A stretch of 30,671 bases of DNA, from positions 13,192-43,862 of IMG/VR virus record IMGVR_UViG_3300030419_001084. One strand, written 5' to 3'. The notes beneath the pieces are model-generated. The model saw only the letters and a program-made list of their open reading frames with translations, ran no database searches and was not told the origin of the DNA. Origin of the DNA: a virus. Positions 3 to 20,200 of this stretch are shown piece after piece; position 1 is the first letter of the stretch, and each line of letters begins with the position of its first letter. Position numbers and translations under genes: made by a program.

Positions 3-1220
3 ACTAGGATGATTAGCGGTGCTTATAAATACTTAACAGACAAAAGATTTAGAAGATTAGTGGATGGGTCTGGTGCTGATTTATTTAGACCGGCTCATGA
101 AATGATGGGGTTTGCTAAATCTGGTAGTAAAATGCAGTCTCTTGCTGATTTCCTAACAGATAAAAGTCAATTCAATAGAATTAACTCTATAAATAATATT
201 GTATCAGCTTCTATAGGTAAGGTTTTTATAGAAGATATGTTGAATGTTGTTCGCAAGGGCGGTACTTGGAAGACATTAGGTGTTTCTAAGCTAAGAAAAC
301 TAGAGGTTAGAAATGCAAAGAACACTCTAGATAGACTAGGGATTAAGGTAACTGATATAAAAAAGAACGGAAAGATTAGTGATGCTAAGATGATGCAAGC
401 AATGGGTGATTTTGCAGTTAAGACGCAGGTTCAAAAAAATATATTAACAGACCCACTATGGCTTAATAGACCTAGCCTTAGATTATTAACCCAATTTAAA
501 ACTTTTCCAGTAAGAAATGCTAACTACATGAGGAAACAAATAGAATCTGATTTGTATAATTATAATATATTTCCATTATTAAGACTAGGAGCAACAGGAG
601 TAGCAGGTGCAGGTATAGCTCTAAAGGCTAAGGAGTATATGAAGTATGTTTTCTCTGGAGAAAAATCTTATGAACCAGAAAACTTTATAAATACAGATGG
701 CAAAGATATAGTAGAAGCTTTGACTGCTATTGGAGCTTTTGGTTATATGTCAGATGTAATGTCTCCTTTATTAGAAGAAGGTGCAGATTTTACATTCGCT
801 AATAAAGCCAAGTGGTTAGCTCAACCTGCGTTTTGGTCTGACTTTGAAAACCTACTTAAGACAATAGACTCTCTAGAGAAAGATTTTTCAGAATACAAAG
901 GAGAGGCAATCTATCGTGTGCCATCAAGAGCGCTTAAACTTACAGGAAGTCCTCTATTAAAACAAGCGTCTAAAAGAGTAGAGACAAAGGGGTTAAAGCA
1001 AAACAGAATTAAGTACTTAAGGGGAAGAAAGTTAGCGGAGTTTAGGTCAAGGCTTATTGATGGTGACGATAGAAAAAAAGTAGTATCTGATATAAGAGAT
1101 TGGAATAACTACGTAAGAAGCTTGCCATCTGGCTATGGTAAATACAGAATAACAATATCAGATTACAATAGACAAGCCTTGATTAAAGCTGTGATAAGAA
1201 AAAATAAAAAGAAAGTTTAA
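3..1220 (+). CDS. C-terminal part of a large virion-type protein (5' end outside window)
   Basis: The reading frame is open from the first bases of the window, with no stop before the first Met at base 9, so this is probably the C-terminal part of a longer protein. About 403 residues are visible. They are basic, mostly helical, and contain one Gly/Ala-rich hydrophobic stretch (around residues 195-210) that could be a membrane-interacting segment. The tail is very basic (RKNKKKV). Its place at the end of a plus-strand block, just before a nuclease gene, fits the last large structural or internal virion protein of a tailed phage. I recognise no catalytic motif. The stop overlaps the start of the next gene (TAATG), which suggests coupled translation. 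Confidence 0.6.
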   Translation, partial: TRMISGAYKYLTDKRFRRLVDGSGADLFRPAHEMMGFAKSGSKMQSLADFLTDKSQFNRINSINNIVSASIGKVFIEDMLNVVRKGGTWKTLGVSKLRKLEVRNAKNTLDRLGIKVTDIKKNGKISDAKMMQAMGDFAVKTQVQKNILTDPLWLNRPSLRLLTQFKTFPVRNANYMRKQIESDLYNYNIFPLLRLGATGVAGAGIALKAKEYMKYVFSGEKSYEPENFINTDGKDIVEALTAIGAFGYMSDVMSPLLEEGADFTFANKAKWLAQPAFWSDFENLLKTIDSLEKDFSEYKGEAIYRVPSRALKLTGSPLLKQASKRVETKGLKQNRIKYLRGRKLAEFRSRLIDGDDRKKVVSDIRDWNNYVRSLPSGYGKYRITISDYNRQALIKAVIRKNKKKV

Positions 1221-1597
1221 TGGATTGCAAGTACACATATAATGCTAAGCTACTTAGGGTTGTAGATGGTGACACTTGCGATGCCATGATAGACTTAGGT
1301 TTCGATACTTGGATTAAAAGACGTATTAGATTTATGGGTGTAGATACTTGGGAATCTAGAACTAGAGATTTAGATGAAAAAAAGAAAGGTCTAGAAGCTA
1401 AGGCTTACACTAAAGACAAGTTAGAAAATTCTAACGAAGGTAAATTTACTTTAAAATCACATGGTACAGGTAAGTATGGCAGAGTTCTTGGTGAAATATT
1501 TCTTAAAGATGAAGAAGAAAGTCTCAATGAACTATTAAAAATTAATGGTCATGCCTATGAATATCTTGGTGGAAAGAAGAAGAAGTTTAATGGCTAA
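1220..1597 (+). CDS. Staphylococcal-nuclease-like (thermonuclease) protein
   Basis: This 125-residue protein matches the staphylococcal nuclease fold family, which hydrolyses DNA and RNA with calcium. Visible active-site equivalents are Asp16 and Asp18 in VVDGDT, an Arg in RRIRF (residues 34-37), Asp42 and Glu45 in VDTWES, and Arg88 in KYGRVLGE. These are the D21, R35, D40, E43 and R87 positions of the classical enzyme, so it is probably active. No signal peptide is visible, and it is close to the minimal domain length. Its start overlaps the preceding stop (TAATG) and its end overlaps the next gene by 8 bases. It could take part in degrading host DNA or be carried with the virion; the context does not decide. 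Confidence 0.85.
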   Translation: MDCKYTYNAKLLRVVDGDTCDAMIDLGFDTWIKRRIRFMGVDTWESRTRDLDEKKKGLEAKAYTKDKLENSNEGKFTLKSHGTGKYGRVLGEIFLKDEEESLNELLKINGHAYEYLGGKKKKFNG

Positions 1598-9077: not shown

Positions 9078-9290
9078 TTAATTTTCTTCTTCATTATCCT
9101 CATCCCTTATTAATTCTTCATGTTCTATTATTCTATCCACAAATACACCAGACTCTTCTAACATACTCATTTCTTGTATTAGGTAATCTTCTGCTGATAA
9201 AGTATTACCATATATATGTTCTTTATCAGTTGGTGTGTATACAGATACTTCTATTATTACGTTTTGGAAACTCTCTATGTTTCTACTCAT
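9078..9290 (-). CDS. Unknown small acidic protein
   Basis: I start this gene at the ATG at 9290 (70 residues, MSRNIESFQNVII...), which has a perfect AAAGGAGG ribosome binding site and overlaps the amidoligase gene by 8 bases. A Met at 9338 lies inside that gene. A strand (VIIEVSVYTP) is followed by acidic helical stretches and a strongly acidic tail (RDEDNEEEN). Its tight coupling to the amidoligase makes it a possible partner or substrate, but no motif supports a specific role. Confidence 0.55.
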   Translation of the reverse strand: MSRNIESFQNVIIEVSVYTPTDKEHIYGNTLSAEDYLIQEMSMLEESGVFVDRIIEHEELIRDEDNEEEN

Positions 9291-10458
9291 TTTCTCTTCC
9301 TCCTTTGAACTTGCTAGTTCTCTTGTTAATATAGTCACATAGTTCTACTCCAAAAGTACTCACCATGTGTCTAATAGGTGTTTTCTTAATCCATTTATCA
9401 TACTCTTCTTCTGTATATTTTTCTAATTTTATGCCCATGTCTATTATCTTATTTAATATTTGTATCCAATTAACTATCTTGGTTTTGTTTAGAGTCCCAG
9501 AGTGTAGACGAAACTCTAGGGAGCCATGATAGTACCTAGAATGTATGTTTAATCCACAATATCTAGCGTCATTATACTTCTCTGCAGTAGGAGAAGAGTC
9601 CATGTAGTCGTAGTATGTTTCTATTAAATGTTCTTCGTCAGGAATTTGTCTCATAACTCTTATTGGTATAGGAAAGTCTTTACACCAATTAGAATCTTGT
9701 CTAGAGTTAGGCATCATACCTTTCAATATCTCTTCAAAATAACTATATACTATTGCTACATGAGATACCTGTCTAGCATTTAAATCTAATGAATTGAAGT
9801 GTACATGTAGACCACAGCTTCTATTCACTACTGCTTCTATACTATTAGACCAACTCATTAATCTGTCTATACTATCTAATAGTAAATCTCCACTAGCAGG
9901 ATAGCTTACCATTTCTATTCCCTCATACTCTCCCCCACTACTTATAGAGCCATCATTTGTACTAGTCCAATATTTAGGATTAGATATTGTATCATTCCAC
10001 TCTGGAAATAGACACTCAACTTCTATACCAACTAGTCTACGAACAGGAAACTTAAAAGACTCTGCTTCTCTAGAACAGGAAGGTGGTCTATTAGTGTCTA
10101 GGTTGTAGGTCATTTCACCTATATCATTAGGCACACAGCTACTACAATAAGGCTCATCATCTCTCCAATATACCTCGTCTCTATCTGTAGTTTCTCCACA
10201 ATGGGTACAATTCTCATAGATTTCATAGAAACAATCTTCACAATAGGGTTCGCCATGACCAAAATAAGCATAGTCTGTATGAGTTGATTCACTACAACTA
10301 GTGCAAATATAGAAAAGTTCATCATGGCATGGTTCACAATATCTCTCACCTTCTGCTAGTATAGAATTATTTCGCTCTACAGAATTACTACAACTACAAC
10401 ATTCTATTATATCGGGTGTTTCTACTGCTCTTTTTTGTACTTGTCTAAGTGTAGGCAT
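9283..10458 (-). CDS. COOH-NH2 ligase (amidoligase) with N-terminal zinc ribbons
   Basis: The 391-residue protein has two parts. Residues 20-108 carry repeated CxxC pairs (C20/C23, C41/C44, C52/C55, C73/C76, C84/C87, C105/C108), reading as about three zinc ribbons. Residues 141-325 match the Amidoligase_2 fold, a glutamine-synthetase-like ATP-dependent ligase: GIEVE (Glu146, Glu148), NDGSI (Asp169), EYEGIEMVSYP (Glu182), CGLHVHFN (His218, His220), NDARY (Arg299) and SLEFRLHSGT (Glu315, Arg317). All metal- and nucleotide-binding motifs seem intact. Such enzymes join a carboxylate to an amine. The substrate is unknown; protein, peptide or another metabolite are all possible. A second amidoligase and a glutamine amidotransferase lie in the same operon. 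Confidence 0.85.
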   Translation of the reverse strand: MPTLRQVQKRAVETPDIIECCSCSNSVERNNSILAEGERYCEPCHDELFYICTSCSESTHTDYAYFGHGEPYCEDCFYEIYENCTHCGETTDRDEVYWRDDEPYCSSCVPNDIGEMTYNLDTNRPPSCSREAESFKFPVRRLVGIEVECLFPEWNDTISNPKYWTSTNDGSISSGGEYEGIEMVSYPASGDLLLDSIDRLMSWSNSIEAVVNRSCGLHVHFNSLDLNARQVSHVAIVYSYFEEILKGMMPNSRQDSNWCKDFPIPIRVMRQIPDEEHLIETYYDYMDSSPTAEKYNDARYCGLNIHSRYYHGSLEFRLHSGTLNKTKIVNWIQILNKIIDMGIKLEKYTEEEYDKWIKKTPIRHMVSTFGVELCDYINKRTSKFKGGRENE

Positions 10459-10459
10459 A

Positions 10460-10789
10460 CTAGACTCCTATGTTAGTAGCTTCTATAATACCAATTATAA
10501 AAGCATTTATCACCTTCAGCCAATTCATTTTCTTCAGAGTATCGTAGATATCATCTTCTAGTGTATCAGAATTTCTATCTATTTTTGCATCAATAGAACC
10601 CATAACATCTATTTGATTAAGTAAGAAGTCTAAATACTCTTCGTAAGAAGAGTCTACTAGAAATGGATTTTTCTTAGCTCTCTTATATAGAGTTTCTATT
10701 ACAAACTTCTTAGATTTTAATTTAATAGGATTAGGAAACCCTACTAATATTACTTTCTTTTTAGAATCCGAACCATCTGGTATCTTCAT
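10460..10789 (-). CDS. Unknown 109-residue protein between amidotransferase and amidoligase
   Basis: The ATG at 10789 has a perfect AAGGAGGT ribosome binding site and is preferred over a Met at 10819 that lies inside the amidotransferase gene. The protein starts MKIPDGSDSKKKVILVGFPNP, then is Lys-rich and helical (LKSKKFVIETLYKRAKKNPF, YEEYLDFLLNQI), and ends with the hydrophobic stretch VINAFIIGIIEATNIGV. It overlaps the amidotransferase by 29 bases and ends one base before the amidoligase gene, so it is surely part of that operon. I do not recognise a family. It could be the substrate, a scaffold or a third enzyme component of the amidoligase system. Confidence 0.65.
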   Translation of the reverse strand: MKIPDGSDSKKKVILVGFPNPIKLKSKKFVIETLYKRAKKNPFLVDSSYEEYLDFLLNQIDVMGSIDAKIDRNSDTLEDDIYDTLKKMNWLKVINAFIIGIIEATNIGV

Positions 10790-11828
10790 CTGTATTACCT
10801 CCTTCTCTTTTATCTTCATTACTATATGTATCTCTAGTGGTGTTGTCGTAATCCTCGTTTAAATACTCACAATCAAAGCATACATACTTACCTCTCTCGT
10901 CTTGCCATACCTCGTCTTGTGCAATCCACTCATAGCAATAACTACACATCTCTTTTCTATTATCGCAAGTTATAGGTAAGTTTTTACTAGCTGGACTTGG
11001 ATTACCTATGCTAGTATAACTACTTTGACCGAACCTACTAGAATTGTAGTAGCCGTATCCTCCGTAGCCATAACCTCTACTATAGTCGTACTGAGATATA
11101 GTCTCAAAGGGTACTTGCTTTCTTCTAGGTTTACTATCAAACTCATCTGTATTATATGTAAATATATAATCCTCTGGTACTTCCTTGATAGGTAGAACTA
11201 GACCTGCATTCATCATAGCTTCTTTCATTATATCTCTAGTAGATGCCCATAGTAGAACTCTAGCTTTCTTCCAATACGCTGTTACCATAGGTCTACCAGA
11301 CTCTCTAGCTAGATGTATCTTCTTATTACTATCTTTTACCCATGTTATAGCAAAGTCTCCATCTATATCCTCAAAAGCCTTGCTCATAGCATTTCTATTA
11401 AGAGATTGAAATAGAACTTGTGAGTCTACTTCGGGTACTTTCTTACCCATTTCCTTAGCTACTTTATTATAGTTGTAGATAACACCATTGTGAGCACCTG
11501 TTACTCTCCCTATATTAAACGGATGAGCATTAGTTACTTTTACCTTGCCATGAGTAGCTAGTCTAACATGACCTATTACAATGGTAGTATCTCTTGTGAT
11601 TCTAGGTAGAATATCTGTATACCAATCATCTGAGTCTACAAACGTAGATGAATCATCTAATGTCTTATAAGTGTACCTGTTCTCTGAGTCCATAATAGAA
11701 AACCCAGTACTATCAGTACCTCTTATAGAAGATTCGTCTGTAAGTTCAGTAAATACTCTCTTGAGTATTTCTAGTTGGTTATCAGATTGTCTATTGCTAG
11801 TTTTAGCAAAGCCAAAAATACCACACAT
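10761..11828 (-). CDS. Class II glutamine amidotransferase with C-terminal zinc ribbon
   Basis: The protein (355 residues) begins MCGIFGF, so Cys2 would be the Ntn-hydrolase nucleophile after Met removal. Supporting motifs are SIRGTDSTG (34-42), GHVRLATHG (86-94), AHPF (101-104), GAHNG (111-115) and VDSQ (134-137), all expected for GATase class II, which releases ammonia from glutamine. A Gly/Tyr-rich linker (residues about 250-270) leads to a zinc ribbon with C295/C298 and C317/C320 (CSYC...CFDC) and an acidic tail. No synthase or sugar isomerase domain is fused, so ammonia would go to a separate partner, most simply the adjacent amidoligases. A ribosome binding site AAAGGAG precedes the ATG. 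The zinc ribbon resembles those of the amidoligase encoded downstream. Confidence 0.9.
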   Translation of the reverse strand: MCGIFGFAKTSNRQSDNQLEILKRVFTELTDESSIRGTDSTGFSIMDSENRYTYKTLDDSSTFVDSDDWYTDILPRITRDTTIVIGHVRLATHGKVKVTNAHPFNIGRVTGAHNGVIYNYNKVAKEMGKKVPEVDSQVLFQSLNRNAMSKAFEDIDGDFAITWVKDSNKKIHLARESGRPMVTAYWKKARVLLWASTRDIMKEAMMNAGLVLPIKEVPEDYIFTYNTDEFDSKPRRKQVPFETISQYDYSRGYGYGGYGYYNSSRFGQSSYTSIGNPSPASKNLPITCDNRKEMCSYCYEWIAQDEVWQDERGKYVCFDCEYLNEDYDNTTRDTYSNEDKREGGNTDEDTRWFGF

Positions 11829-11851
11829 ACTGATTTTCTCCTTTATTGTTA

Positions 11852-13693
11852 TTAGTTATTATTATCTATTCTCCTTTCTATATACTCAGCACCCCATACT
11901 CCTGTTGTATCTCTTACTATATCAATAGACTGAGTTTTTGTAGAAATTATTTTACTATATAATTTAGTATTCTTATGAAGTTTTGTAGAAGTATCCATTA
12001 TCTTATTTAAAAATCTTATCCAATCTTCTATTGGTTTAGACCTAATCGTACCTTCATGGTATCTAAATTCTACTGAACCCATATAGAACCTAGCGTGTAT
12101 ATTAGTTCCTGTGTATCTAGCTTCATTATATTTTGTATCATCTAGTATCGAGTCTTGTATATTATAGTATGAATTTACTAGAGTAGGTAAATCATTTATA
12201 GATGCCCATTCTTTAGAAGTTATAGGTATTTCTCTACAATAGTTTTTACTTCTATAATTAGGTAATCCTTGATAGATAGATGTTTGTATTCTAGACATTA
12301 TCATTAGTAGAGATTTTAATTCTGTAAATCCAAAATCTATTGCATTTATATGTATATGAACACCACAGCTTTCATCTACAGAGTTATATTCATCTAGGTT
12401 ACATTCTTCTAAAGAATCTAATGCTCCATCTACTTGTCTACCTATTACAGGTCTCTCTGTAACAAATTCTACCCCTCCACCATTTAGAGAACCATCTTCT
12501 ACTACTTTAAAATACATAGGTATTGAAGCATTATCATAATAATGGTCTGCTCCCTCATATTCAGTTATAACTTCGCTTTCTATTCCTACAAATCTATTAA
12601 AATTTGTCTTGTTATCATATTTATTAGGTAAATGCAATCCTCTAAATGGACTAAATAGAATATTATTTAACTTGAATGTAGCACACGTATTGCAATATGT
12701 TCTCTGCATTATGTGTTTATATTTTCTATTTCTATATTTAAATTTATTTAGAAAATCGTTCTTTTCTCTCTTATCACAATTTCTAAGAATTTCTAAGTCT
12801 ACTATATCAATCGCTTTACATCTTGTACAGCTAACATAGAACATTCCATAGCAACTATTACAGCAAACCTTTGCTTCTACTAACTCTAGCATTTGTTTTT
12901 CCATTTCTCTAGCTTTGCTTATATCATTAGAGTTGCCTATAGAAACACTTGAATAGCAAACTTCACAATCTACTTTTTCAATAACGTAGCATTTGTCACA
13001 TATTCTATAATCTGAATACTCTTGCAAATGATTATCTATTTTCTTGCAAAACTTACATCTATAGTATGCGTCTACATTTCTTGTTTGACACTCTATTAAG
13101 TTTCTAAGAATTTTACTATTAATTTTATCTAAATAGAACCTATTGCAACCATTATACCTATCTCTAGAGTAAATTAATCTAGAATCATTTTTATCTACAA
13201 GTTCAGATTCCATTAATTTAAGATGTACACTTACATCCATATCTTCTTTTCTTCTATATATACCATTACTAGCTATATCATTTATCATAGATTCTGCATC
13301 TAGATATCCATTTATCTGGTTTTCTTGCACTAGATAATGTTTAATACCATTAGGATAACTAGATTCATTATGATAGGCAATAGATATTAATTCTTTGTGC
13401 ATATATAACAAATCAGAAGCTCTACATATTACATTTCTTCTATCTTGCGTATAATATCTAGGCTCTAATAGAACTCCAACAGGAAAACAATTATCTTCTA
13501 GTTCATCTTCGCTATAATGTTTCACATCTATTATTTTAAATAGACGACTAGCTATTGAAGTGTATTCATATACATCTAGAGTAGTACCCTCATAGGTAGA
13601 CATATCGTTTAAATCAATATTAGAGAAACTATATTCAGTAGTATATCTAGCTCTAGCAGTACTTATTAGAAAAACTTCATTTGAATAGAGCAT
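11852..13693 (-). CDS. Large amidoligase with extended N-terminus and zinc-binding cysteine pairs
   Basis: The protein has 613 residues. Residues 1-205 are an unrecognised strand-rich region. Residues 213-337 hold CxxC pairs (C213/C216, C232/C235, C243/C246, C278/C281, C289/C292, C334/C337), probably three zinc ribbons. The C-terminal Amidoligase_2 domain carries GIESE (370-374), EDGSLNGGGVEFVTERP (Asp400, Glu409), CGVHIHIN (His446, His448), NEARYTG (Arg526) and SVEFRYHEGT (Glu542, Arg544). It is clearly paralogous to the 391-residue amidoligase encoded downstream. A strong AAGGAG precedes the start. Two ligases with similar ribbons suggest either two successive ligations or a heteromeric enzyme; the sequence does not say which. 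Confidence 0.85.
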   Translation of the reverse strand: MLYSNEVFLISTARARYTTEYSFSNIDLNDMSTYEGTTLDVYEYTSIASRLFKIIDVKHYSEDELEDNCFPVGVLLEPRYYTQDRRNVICRASDLLYMHKELISIAYHNESSYPNGIKHYLVQENQINGYLDAESMINDIASNGIYRRKEDMDVSVHLKLMESELVDKNDSRLIYSRDRYNGCNRFYLDKINSKILRNLIECQTRNVDAYYRCKFCKKIDNHLQEYSDYRICDKCYVIEKVDCEVCYSSVSIGNSNDISKAREMEKQMLELVEAKVCCNSCYGMFYVSCTRCKAIDIVDLEILRNCDKREKNDFLNKFKYRNRKYKHIMQRTYCNTCATFKLNNILFSPFRGLHLPNKYDNKTNFNRFVGIESEVITEYEGADHYYDNASIPMYFKVVEDGSLNGGGVEFVTERPVIGRQVDGALDSLEECNLDEYNSVDESCGVHIHINAIDFGFTELKSLLMIMSRIQTSIYQGLPNYRSKNYCREIPITSKEWASINDLPTLVNSYYNIQDSILDDTKYNEARYTGTNIHARFYMGSVEFRYHEGTIRSKPIEDWIRFLNKIMDTSTKLHKNTKLYSKIISTKTQSIDIVRDTTGVWGAEYIERRIDNNN

Positions 13694-18003: not shown

Positions 18004-18114
18004 ATGAATGTGTTAATAGGTTTACTAACTATGTTCTCAGGACAAGTTATTTATTTTTTAGAGGCTCTTATTTTAATTTGCCTAGTAAAGATGCTTAAAG
18101 GGGTAATGAAGTGA
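18004..18114 (+). CDS. 36-residue transmembrane protein
   Basis: MNVLIGLLTMFSGQVIYFLE and then ALILICLVKMLK form one or two hydrophobic helices with a basic end. GAGGT stands six bases before the ATG, and the stop overlaps the GTG start of the phosphoesterase gene (GTGA). Its hydrophobic profile would permit a holin-like role, but no lysin gene lies beside it in this window, so the function stays open. Confidence 0.55.
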   Translation: MNVLIGLLTMFSGQVIYFLEALILICLVKMLKGVMK

Positions 18115-18872
18115 AAAGAGCCATTGTTACCCCTGACAAGCATTTCCCATTTGAAGACAAAAAAGCTATAAGGGTATTGTGTAAGGCAATAGAACTTGTA
18201 AAGCCTAATATATATATTGATTTAGGAGATACAGGTGAATGGGAGTCAGTATCACATTGGCAATGGAAGAAGAAAAAGAGACCTCCTTTAGAATATCAAC
18301 TTCCATTTGTCCACAAAGAGATAAAAGCTGTTAATAAAGGAATGGACATAATAGATGCTTCCTTAGATAAGGCTGGAACAAAGGAGCGTCATTTCATAGA
18401 GGGGAATCATGATGATTGGCTTAATAGATTCGTTGAAGAGAATCCATATCTCGCTAAAGAAATACTCGTTAAGAATGCTCTTAAACTTAGAGAGCGTGGT
18501 TACAAATACCATAAAATCGGTAAAATGCTTAAGATTGGCAAAATTAATTTTTACCATGGGCATCATTTTGCAGGAATTAACCACACTCGTAATCATTTGT
18601 TGCGTCTCGGCGGTAATGTTATGTATGGTCATCATCACGATATTCAGCAAAGCTCTATTACGCACATTGATGGGGTTAAGTCAGCGTGGTCAATAGGGTG
18701 CTTAAAAGATATGCGTTCTGAGGCTAATGAGTGGCTTGGCAACAGACAGCATAACTGGCAACATGCTTTTGCTATTGTTGACTTTCATAAGAATGGAAAC
18801 TTCAATGTTACTGTCCATCAGATAGTAAATGGAGTTAGTACGGTAGATGGAAAGGTTTTGAGGCATAATTGA
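18111..18872 (+). CDS. Calcineurin-like metallophosphoesterase
   Basis: The 253-residue protein starts with GTG in a GTGA overlap with the preceding stop. The metal-binding motifs of the calcineurin-like superfamily are all visible: DKH (Asp9, His11), LGD (Asp40), GNHD (Asn99, His100, Asp101), HGHH (149-152) and GHHHD (173-177). Two metal ions would be bound and phosphodi- or monoesters hydrolysed. A substrate cannot be named from the sequence; phage members of the family include nucleotide- and DNA-end-acting enzymes. It stands immediately upstream of the small terminase gene and overlaps it, so it is expressed with the packaging genes. Confidence 0.9.
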   Translation: MKRAIVTPDKHFPFEDKKAIRVLCKAIELVKPNIYIDLGDTGEWESVSHWQWKKKKRPPLEYQLPFVHKEIKAVNKGMDIIDASLDKAGTKERHFIEGNHDDWLNRFVEENPYLAKEILVKNALKLRERGYKYHKIGKMLKIGKINFYHGHHFAGINHTRNHLLRLGGNVMYGHHHDIQQSSITHIDGVKSAWSIGCLKDMRSEANEWLGNRQHNWQHAFAIVDFHKNGNFNVTVHQIVNGVSTVDGKVLRHN

Positions 18873-19633: not shown

Positions 19634-19842
19634 ATCTATATGATATATGCCTACAGGTCTTGGAACATGCTAATGAGTCAAAGGTTGATTTAGATGATGA
19701 TATTGCACGTGAATCTATAGCAACTGAAATATATGAGTTGTTTTACGAGTACCAAATGTATTCTCCGTACATTGATACAGGGTACCTAAGCGACTTAAAA
19801 GACTATTGGAATTACAAACAAGACCTAGATGAAGACGAATAA
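19630..19842 (+). CDS. Unknown small acidic protein
   Basis: It has 70 residues, starting with TTG in a TTGA overlap with the small terminase stop and an AAGGGA site upstream. It is helical, acidic and tyrosine-rich (IYELFYEYQMYSPYIDTGY) and ends DLDEDE. No family is recognised. Its location between the terminase subunits suggests a packaging accessory role, without direct evidence. Confidence 0.55.
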   Translation: MNLYDICLQVLEHANESKVDLDDDIARESIATEIYELFYEYQMYSPYIDTGYLSDLKDYWNYKQDLDEDE

Positions 19843-20200
19843 ATTAGCTGTATACGGAACATTAAGAAACGGCAAGCGTGATACTTGGAAAGTTGATGGT
19901 TACCTATTAGTTTTTCCGGGTCATAGAATGTATCCTGCCGCATTGCCATCATGGTCTGCTAAAGACATGGTTGTTGAAGTTTTTGATGTTGATAGAGCAG
20001 ATATAACTAGTTACGATTCTTATGAAAGCTTAGATACTGGTTTATATGAAAGAAGAATAGTTGAAGCGTATAATGAAGATGAAAAAGTAGAAGCTTGGAT
20101 GTATACAATAGGTTCTGCATTACTTCAAGGAACAAAAGTTTTTGAAAGAGTCCCTAAGCAAGATTGGATGTCAAAGGAATGCCGAAACCTAAGAAAATAA
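19829..20200 (+). CDS. Gamma-glutamylcyclotransferase-like (AIG2/BtrG-type) protein
   Basis: The 123-residue protein starts near LAVYGTLRNG (residues 6-15), the diagnostic glycine loop of the family. It then has SYDSYESLDTGLYERRIVEAY (about 58-78), where the Glu after Tyr is the expected catalytic acid. This fold cleaves gamma-glutamyl amides and amines and releases 5-oxoproline or a similar product. The gene overlaps both neighbours in the packaging block. Family knowledge links such enzymes with amidoligases and class II amidotransferases, which are also encoded in this phage, so a shared substrate is a reasonable inference. Confidence 0.75.
   Translation: MKTNKLAVYGTLRNGKRDTWKVDGYLLVFPGHRMYPAALPSWSAKDMVVEVFDVDRADITSYDSYESLDTGLYERRIVEAYNEDEKVEAWMYTIGSALLQGTKVFERVPKQDWMSKECRNLRK

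Follow-up and report, generated by a model that had tools for sequence, protein, structure and literature searches.

Which bond is made, and on which molecule, by a phage operon that encodes two amidoligases and a class II glutamine amidotransferase (GAT), all three with predicted zinc ribbons? The question is raised by a viral DNA stretch of 30,671 nucleotides, here called the window, which corresponds to bases 13192-43862 of the 43,862-base record IMGVR_UViG_3300030419_001084. A first-pass annotation had placed the two ligases and GAT in one operon; their coordinates and this arrangement hold, with every gene on the minus strand in the order AL1, GAT, p109, and AL2 (Table 1), where AL1 and AL2 are the ligases and p109 is a 109-residue protein. 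This is a real and tightly conserved operon and a distinct version of a known phage gene set. On balance, it probably encodes a cytosolic amide or gamma-glutamyl ligation system—fed by GAT, accompanied by an eraser enzyme, and acting on protein. The families, folds, catalytic residues, operon structure, strict conservation, and co-occurrence described below were established computationally.

Both ligases belong to the Amidoligase_2 family, as their motifs had suggested: profile searches with PF12224 score AL1 at 70 bits and AL2 at 85.5 bits against a curated cut-off of 22. The core ligase motifs are likewise kept, since an alignment of 48 amidoligases holds 15 invariant positions—in AL2 numbering E146, E148, D169, S171, E182, C215, G216, H218, H220, R253, R299, Y300, N304, E315, and R317. 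AL2 is built from three tandem LIM-type ribbons (residues ~20-108; 27 bits against LIM profile PF00412, cut-off 22.9) and an amidoligase domain of the glutamine synthetase (GS)/GCS2 fold (~140-380). Its AlphaFold2 model has a mean predicted local distance difference test score (pLDDT) of 91.4. In Foldseek, this model matches GS (E 4e-5) and YbdK (E 3e-4) with a probability of 1.0, and also glutamate-cysteine ligase, at a low global template modeling score (0.3-0.4) for a query that included the ribbons; the ribbons match the LIM domains of CRP1, PINCH, and FHL2 (probability 0.98-1.0). Because of these matches, the amidoligase fold and the predicted zinc ribbons are well supported, and the assignment of the model's catalytic domain to the GS/GCS2 fold speaks against placing the ligase regions in another fold. 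AL2 shares ~10% identity with the GS/GCS2 enzymes and differs from them by another substrate and the added ribbons. The structure library already holds a phage "LIM domain containing protein" of the same fold.

CxxC motifs were counted directly, giving six in AL1 (positions 213, 232, 243, 278, 289, and 334), six in AL2, and two in GAT. Ribbons had been annotated in all three proteins with CxxC pairs about 20 residues apart; this spacing stands for most of them (~19-22 residues) and fails for the second and third ribbons of AL1 (~35 and ~45). A literature search combining amidoligases with zinc ribbons returned no paper with a zinc-ribbon amidoligase in its title or abstract. A common origin of the ribbons in ligase and GAT was considered and not adopted: their consensus sequences are similar (ECESCGEEVSRDETYY...YYCEDCY vs ICDYCGEEVDKDELIY...YICDDCE; hhalign E 0.003) and too short for proof.

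GAT combines an N-terminal nucleophile fold, whose nearest solved structures are GlmS and PurF, with one C-terminal predicted zinc ribbon (CxxC at 295 and 317). Its nucleophile Cys2, annotated as intact, is invariant in 12 diverse phages, which also keep H87/R89, N114/G115, and D135.

A scan of viral sequences seeded with p109 yielded 45 loci with identities down to 39%. AL2 follows p109 directly in all 45, and GAT precedes it save at a contig end (L053). An AL2-seeded scan that was blind to p109 gave 71 loci—numbered afresh, and several of them on contigs met in the p109-seeded scan—of which 56 carry GAT, p109, and a ligase; in another group, the ligase stands ahead of GAT and p109 is missing. 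The GAT-p109-AL2 order is referred to as type I and the AL-GAT order without p109 as type II. Counted over distinct GATs, ribbons occur in both GAT and ligase in 58 of 58 type I and 12 of 13 type II cases. By mechanical calling, five type I and four type II GAT reading frames start with something other than MCG; for the four of type II, the caller placed the start upstream or at another start codon. Translation is probably coupled, since the GAT reading frame runs into that of p109 and the final codons of p109 contain the Shine-Dalgarno sequence of AL2. Conserved gene order and linked occurrence of the enzymes bear out the annotation of the two ligases and GAT as one phage ligation system, of which we propose GAT and AL2 as the core pair.

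AL1 comprises a weakly conserved N-terminus (~1-205), three CxxC-pair ribbons, and a C-terminal amidoligase domain. In a phylogenetic tree, the AL1 proteins form one clade nested among the phage ribbon ligases; hence, AL1 is a duplicate of AL2. It is also dispensable, as it is missing from L057 and L064 and likewise from L065, whose contig is shorter. A fusion origin of its N-terminus from the ~190-residue neighbor of the LUZ24/phiEco32 amidoligases was tried by profile comparison, which found no similarity.

The same partners occur outside phages. In Omnitrophota, full-length or nearly full-length ribbon amidoligases lie on eight contigs (L066-L073) of six genomes, and a ribbon GAT follows directly downstream in seven; the eighth ends at the contig edge. 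As in the window, ligase and GAT adjoin and both bear ribbons; unlike the window, the order is AL-GAT and neither AL1 nor p109 is present. On long contigs the pair is embedded in a series of a replication-relaxation protein, a TraD-like coupling protein, PC4, RadC, ligase, GAT, and then TraC, and it is part of a recurring, conserved conjugative element. The minimal AL-GAT pair is also found in some virus contigs, which together with the Omnitrophota elements indicates that GAT and a single ligase can form a unit of their own. Ribbons are missing from the remaining 63 bacterial amidoligases identified, and their flanks, covered up to 8 kb, contain no GAT.

An eraser candidate is encoded next to the terminase: a gamma-glutamyl cyclotransferase of the GGACT/AIG2 type (PF06094, 44.8 bits, cut-off 22.8), whose YGTLRNG motif is conserved in 11 sequences. 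The gene is present in 27 of 34 records of the window's family, including all of at least 40 kb; the seven records that lack it measure less than 34 kb each. It is likely a pathway partner of the ligases and GAT. The cyclotransferase, the kinship of AL1 and AL2, and the conjugative-element relatives all go beyond the first-pass annotation.

Co-occurrence of the three enzyme families was assessed in 17 phage records with an amidoligase, gathered by ligase or GAT searches, and 11 picked by terminase similarity. One of the latter held all three families, leaving 18 amidoligase-positive and 10 negative records. A cyclotransferase is found in 15 and a GAT in 14 of the 18 positive records, and neither in any of the 10 negative ones (Fisher p ~2e-5 and ~2e-4); four of the 17 records were first met via GAT hits, which somewhat favors the GAT count, and one of the 18, Phriendly, was counted by a tblastn match where PF12224 stays below threshold. 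The association had been named as a possible point of failure and lies far above chance. Hence, the toolkit is of a known phage type, represented by LUZ24 and phiEco32. This amidoligase module was predicted by Iyer et al. 2009, according to PMC10580990 and PMC11318856, and UFV-P2 is another phage that carries it (PMC3890496).

Like LUZ24 and phiEco32, the window virus has Amidoligase_2, a class II GAT, and GGACT/AIG2 in one genome. In LUZ24, phiEco32, Zobellviridae, and others, the clustered set consists of a PF14395 ligase, Amidoligase_2, GAT, an ATP-grasp ligase, and a cyclotransferase. The COOH-NH2_lig (PF14395) ligase of LUZ24, phiEco32, and KZY1 is absent from 13 records of the window family of at least 40 kb, and so is the phage ATP-grasp ligase, which all eight tested phages of the LUZ24/phiEco32/Zobellviridae type possess; a profile of phage proteins was used here, since the Pfam RimK profile missed or under-scored known phage ATP-grasps. 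What the window family has instead is a duplicated Amidoligase_2 with LIM-type ribbons, p109, and a cyclotransferase located well away from the operon. The set of Arthrobacter phage Salgado (GGCT - amidoligase - GATase) comprises the same three enzymes and no phage-type ATP-grasp ligase, yet it has a single ligase, no ribbon in ligase or GAT, and no p109.

This comparison also bears on the ribbons. Reference phage ligases lack CxxC ribbons, save for a Cys-rich one in L145; a C-terminal CxxC pair occurs in roughly half of the reference GATs that were checked. As LUZ24, phiEco32, Salgado, and others work with the same enzymes and ligases that lack ribbons—and several of them with GATs that lack them as well—the ribbons are an add-on; they are a property of the window clade and its type II relatives and not of the whole system. 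The annotated idea that a shared ribbon docks all three proteins on one substrate is not supported, and the ribbons could equally join ligase to GAT. Virus contig L228 (L228:7986-13268) carries two ligase-GAT pairs, one ribboned in both partners and one in neither, which fits such tethering; virus contig L231 (L231:1674-9173), with five ribbon amidoligase paralogues in an array and one ribbonless GAT, runs counter to it.

The remaining component, p109, is under purifying selection (nonsynonymous divergence, dN, 0.06-0.25) and contains invariant KSK and LYxRAKKNPF-type motifs. Its longest open reading frame starts at 10819; the ATG at 10789 was used. Searches of Pfam, PHROGs, phage records, PADLOC, and NCBIfam gave no match, and none of the small proteins beside phage GATs or ATP-grasps is similar to it. 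PADLOC does not assign the operon to a known defense family, either. The conserved C-terminus of p109 was considered as proof of a tag. However, the invariance of its NIGV end is mostly due to the overlapping Shine-Dalgarno sequence of AL2; in distant relatives, this sequence lies outside the p109 gene and the C-terminus is altered. What is left is a weak, semi-conserved N-x-G signal near the C-terminus (N116 in 33 and G118 in 34 of 36). Exclusive place in the operon, purifying selection, and invariant motifs together suggest that p109 may be an adaptor or acceptor, and the 109-residue protein, one of the substrates named in the annotation, is a live candidate for substrate or adaptor.

Profile scans of the window proteins show a podovirus-like gene content with a P22-type portal, terminase, DnaB helicase, metallophosphoesterase, and PDDEXK exonuclease. 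Phage records searched with the window DNA hold no close relative, and relatives of AL2 at 50-73% identity are found at ten IMG/VR loci. The metallophosphoesterase is among the best-conserved genes, with 91-94% identity over all ten loci. The staphylococcal-nuclease-like protein is without counterpart there at the sensitivity used, and the 86-residue reading frame that overlaps the end of AL2 has no relative in them. Among the virion genes, an 81-residue protein begins with a CxxC-x(n)-CxxC ribbon, and a repetitive 1100-residue protein has no PHROGs match. Omnitrophota were considered as host via the terminase and not adopted; it gives distant matches only (21 of 237 genomes, 22-36% identity).

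Table 1. Features of the window (positions counted from its first base; aa, amino acids)
Feature	Position	Strand	Evidence or remark
AL1, amidoligase, 613 aa	11852..13693	-	PF12224 E=3e-19
GAT, class II glutamine amidotransferase, 355 aa	10761..11828	-	GATase_6 PF13522 E=3e-19
p109, small helical protein, 109 aa	10460..10789	-	ATG 10789, stop 10460; only between GAT and AL2
AL2, amidoligase, 391 aa	9283..10458	-	PF12224 E=7e-24; PF00412 E=6e-6
TAGGAG Shine-Dalgarno of AL2, within last p109 codons	10463..10475	-	DNA unchanged in near relatives
GGACT/AIG2-like gamma-glutamyl cyclotransferase, 123 aa, adjoins terminase	19829..20200	+	PF06094 E=2e-11; phrog_2520 E=4e-9
Staphylococcal-nuclease-like protein	1220..1597	+	PF00565
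Open reading frame, 86 aa	9078..9338	-	
Metallophosphoesterase	18111..18872	+	phrog_221
Ribbon protein among virion genes, 81 aa	26514..26759	+	
Repetitive protein, virion gene region, 1100 aa	26759..30061	+	

How these parts might act together—how ammonia passes between the proteins, which bonds are made and in which sequence, what p109 does, and what is modified—we infer as follows. GAT would hydrolyze glutamine and pass ammonia, or glutamate made with it, to AL2, which would activate a carboxylate as an acyl phosphate in an ATP-dependent step and then form the amide. AL1, as a diverged duplicate, would likely make a second, related bond, giving two ligations in sequence, while p109 would serve this system alone, as adaptor or acceptor. 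Gamma-glutamyl bonds are formed by ligases of the GS fold, GCS2 and PuuA among them, and gamma-glutamyl-amines are substrates of GGACT and BtrG enzymes. The cyclotransferase would strip gamma-glutamyl groups as 5-oxoproline, and the product would hence probably contain a gamma-glutamyl-amine bond open to erasure by the phage itself. Of the possible targets, a protein from host or phage, with p109 among the candidates, would be likelier than DNA or the cell wall; a protein target is our first choice, held with modest confidence.

Several points weigh against such an erasable ligation system. GATs can work as plain glutaminases. The cyclotransferase gene lies ~6 kb off the operon on the opposite strand, and none is seen near the Omnitrophota ligase-GAT pairs. 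As p109 is seen only in the operon, it gives no independent clue to its role; searches of the PDB by sequence and fold return nothing significant, and its model resembles none of the known folds. The lineages behind the co-occurrence counts are not fully independent, and none of the papers searched reports biochemistry on a phage member.

Among the other targets, the cell envelope has a precedent: a peptidoglycan or surface precursor would be amidated or glutamylated in the cytosol, blocking superinfection. The enzyme set is the same as in LUZ24 and phiEco32, for which latter phage Iyer et al. 2009 proposed this role according to PMC10580990 and PMC11318856, and MurT/GatD is a GAT-coupled ligase that amidates cell-wall precursors (PMC3267633), though of an unrelated ligase fold. 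However, the proposed role is a predicted one that a later paper restates as fact; no envelope-directed gene is seen beside the operon, type II pairs sit in conjugative elements, and the present analysis adds no support of its own. We thus regard an envelope target as unlikely. A gamma-glutamyl metabolite or peptide that is diffusible and alters host metabolism or counters defense, recycled by GGACT, is improbable to nearly the same degree. GGACT and GS-fold enzymes often use small amines, phrog_2520 is filed under host takeover, and a secondary-metabolite role has been suggested for mycobacteriophage Marvin (cited in PMC10580990); on the other side, a strictly conserved p109, together with ribbons in each of the three enzymes, suggests adaptation to a macromolecule, and the phage-type ATP-grasp ligase is missing from the 13 family records.

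One version of the protein-target reading makes p109 itself the acceptor, as a tag or carrier joined via its C-terminal carboxylate or invariant lysines. Its dedication to the operon, its purifying selection, the KSK and RAKKNPF-type motifs, and the N-x-G signal would suit this role; as NIGV is lost when the Shine-Dalgarno sequence moves and type II pairs lack p109 altogether, we consider it slightly less probable still. Far less probable is a modified DNA base, although DNA was among the substrates named in the annotation. Zinc ribbons often bind nucleic acids, but those found here are of the LIM type, which more often binds protein. The model for this reading is CmoY of Synechococcus phage S-B43, likewise a phage ATP-dependent amide ligase, which is asparagine-synthetase-like, forms amides on carboxymethylcytosine beside CmoA/CmoX, and has some homologues with a glutaminase domain (PMC12783734). 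A C5-methyltransferase (PF00145) of the kind such a pathway uses is absent from the window's record and present in only one of the 12 tested relatives that reach 40 kb, and neither a hydroxymethylase nor a base kinase is found among the window proteins scanned. DNA is therefore an unlikely substrate, as no enzyme that installs a handle for ligation was found.

Genes for amidoligase, GAT, and cyclotransferase span very different phages, with E. coli, Pseudomonas, Vibrio, Arthrobacter, and other hosts, and their function is predicted only. The window carries a stripped set—no ATP-grasp, no second ligase family, and a core of GAT, p109, and AL2—and the two-gene form in conjugative elements also pares the set down; hence, its purpose is directly testable with two or three genes. 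A trait common to phages and conjugative elements speaks for a role within infected cells rather than one specific to virions. Tentatively, and with more doubt than conviction, the LIM-type ribbons may hold the glutaminase and the two ligases on p109 or a host protein, with the resulting gamma-glutamyl or amide marks erased by the phage's own cyclotransferase. If true, such a phage protein-conjugation cycle would add a new class to the reversible protein modifications that mobile elements use.

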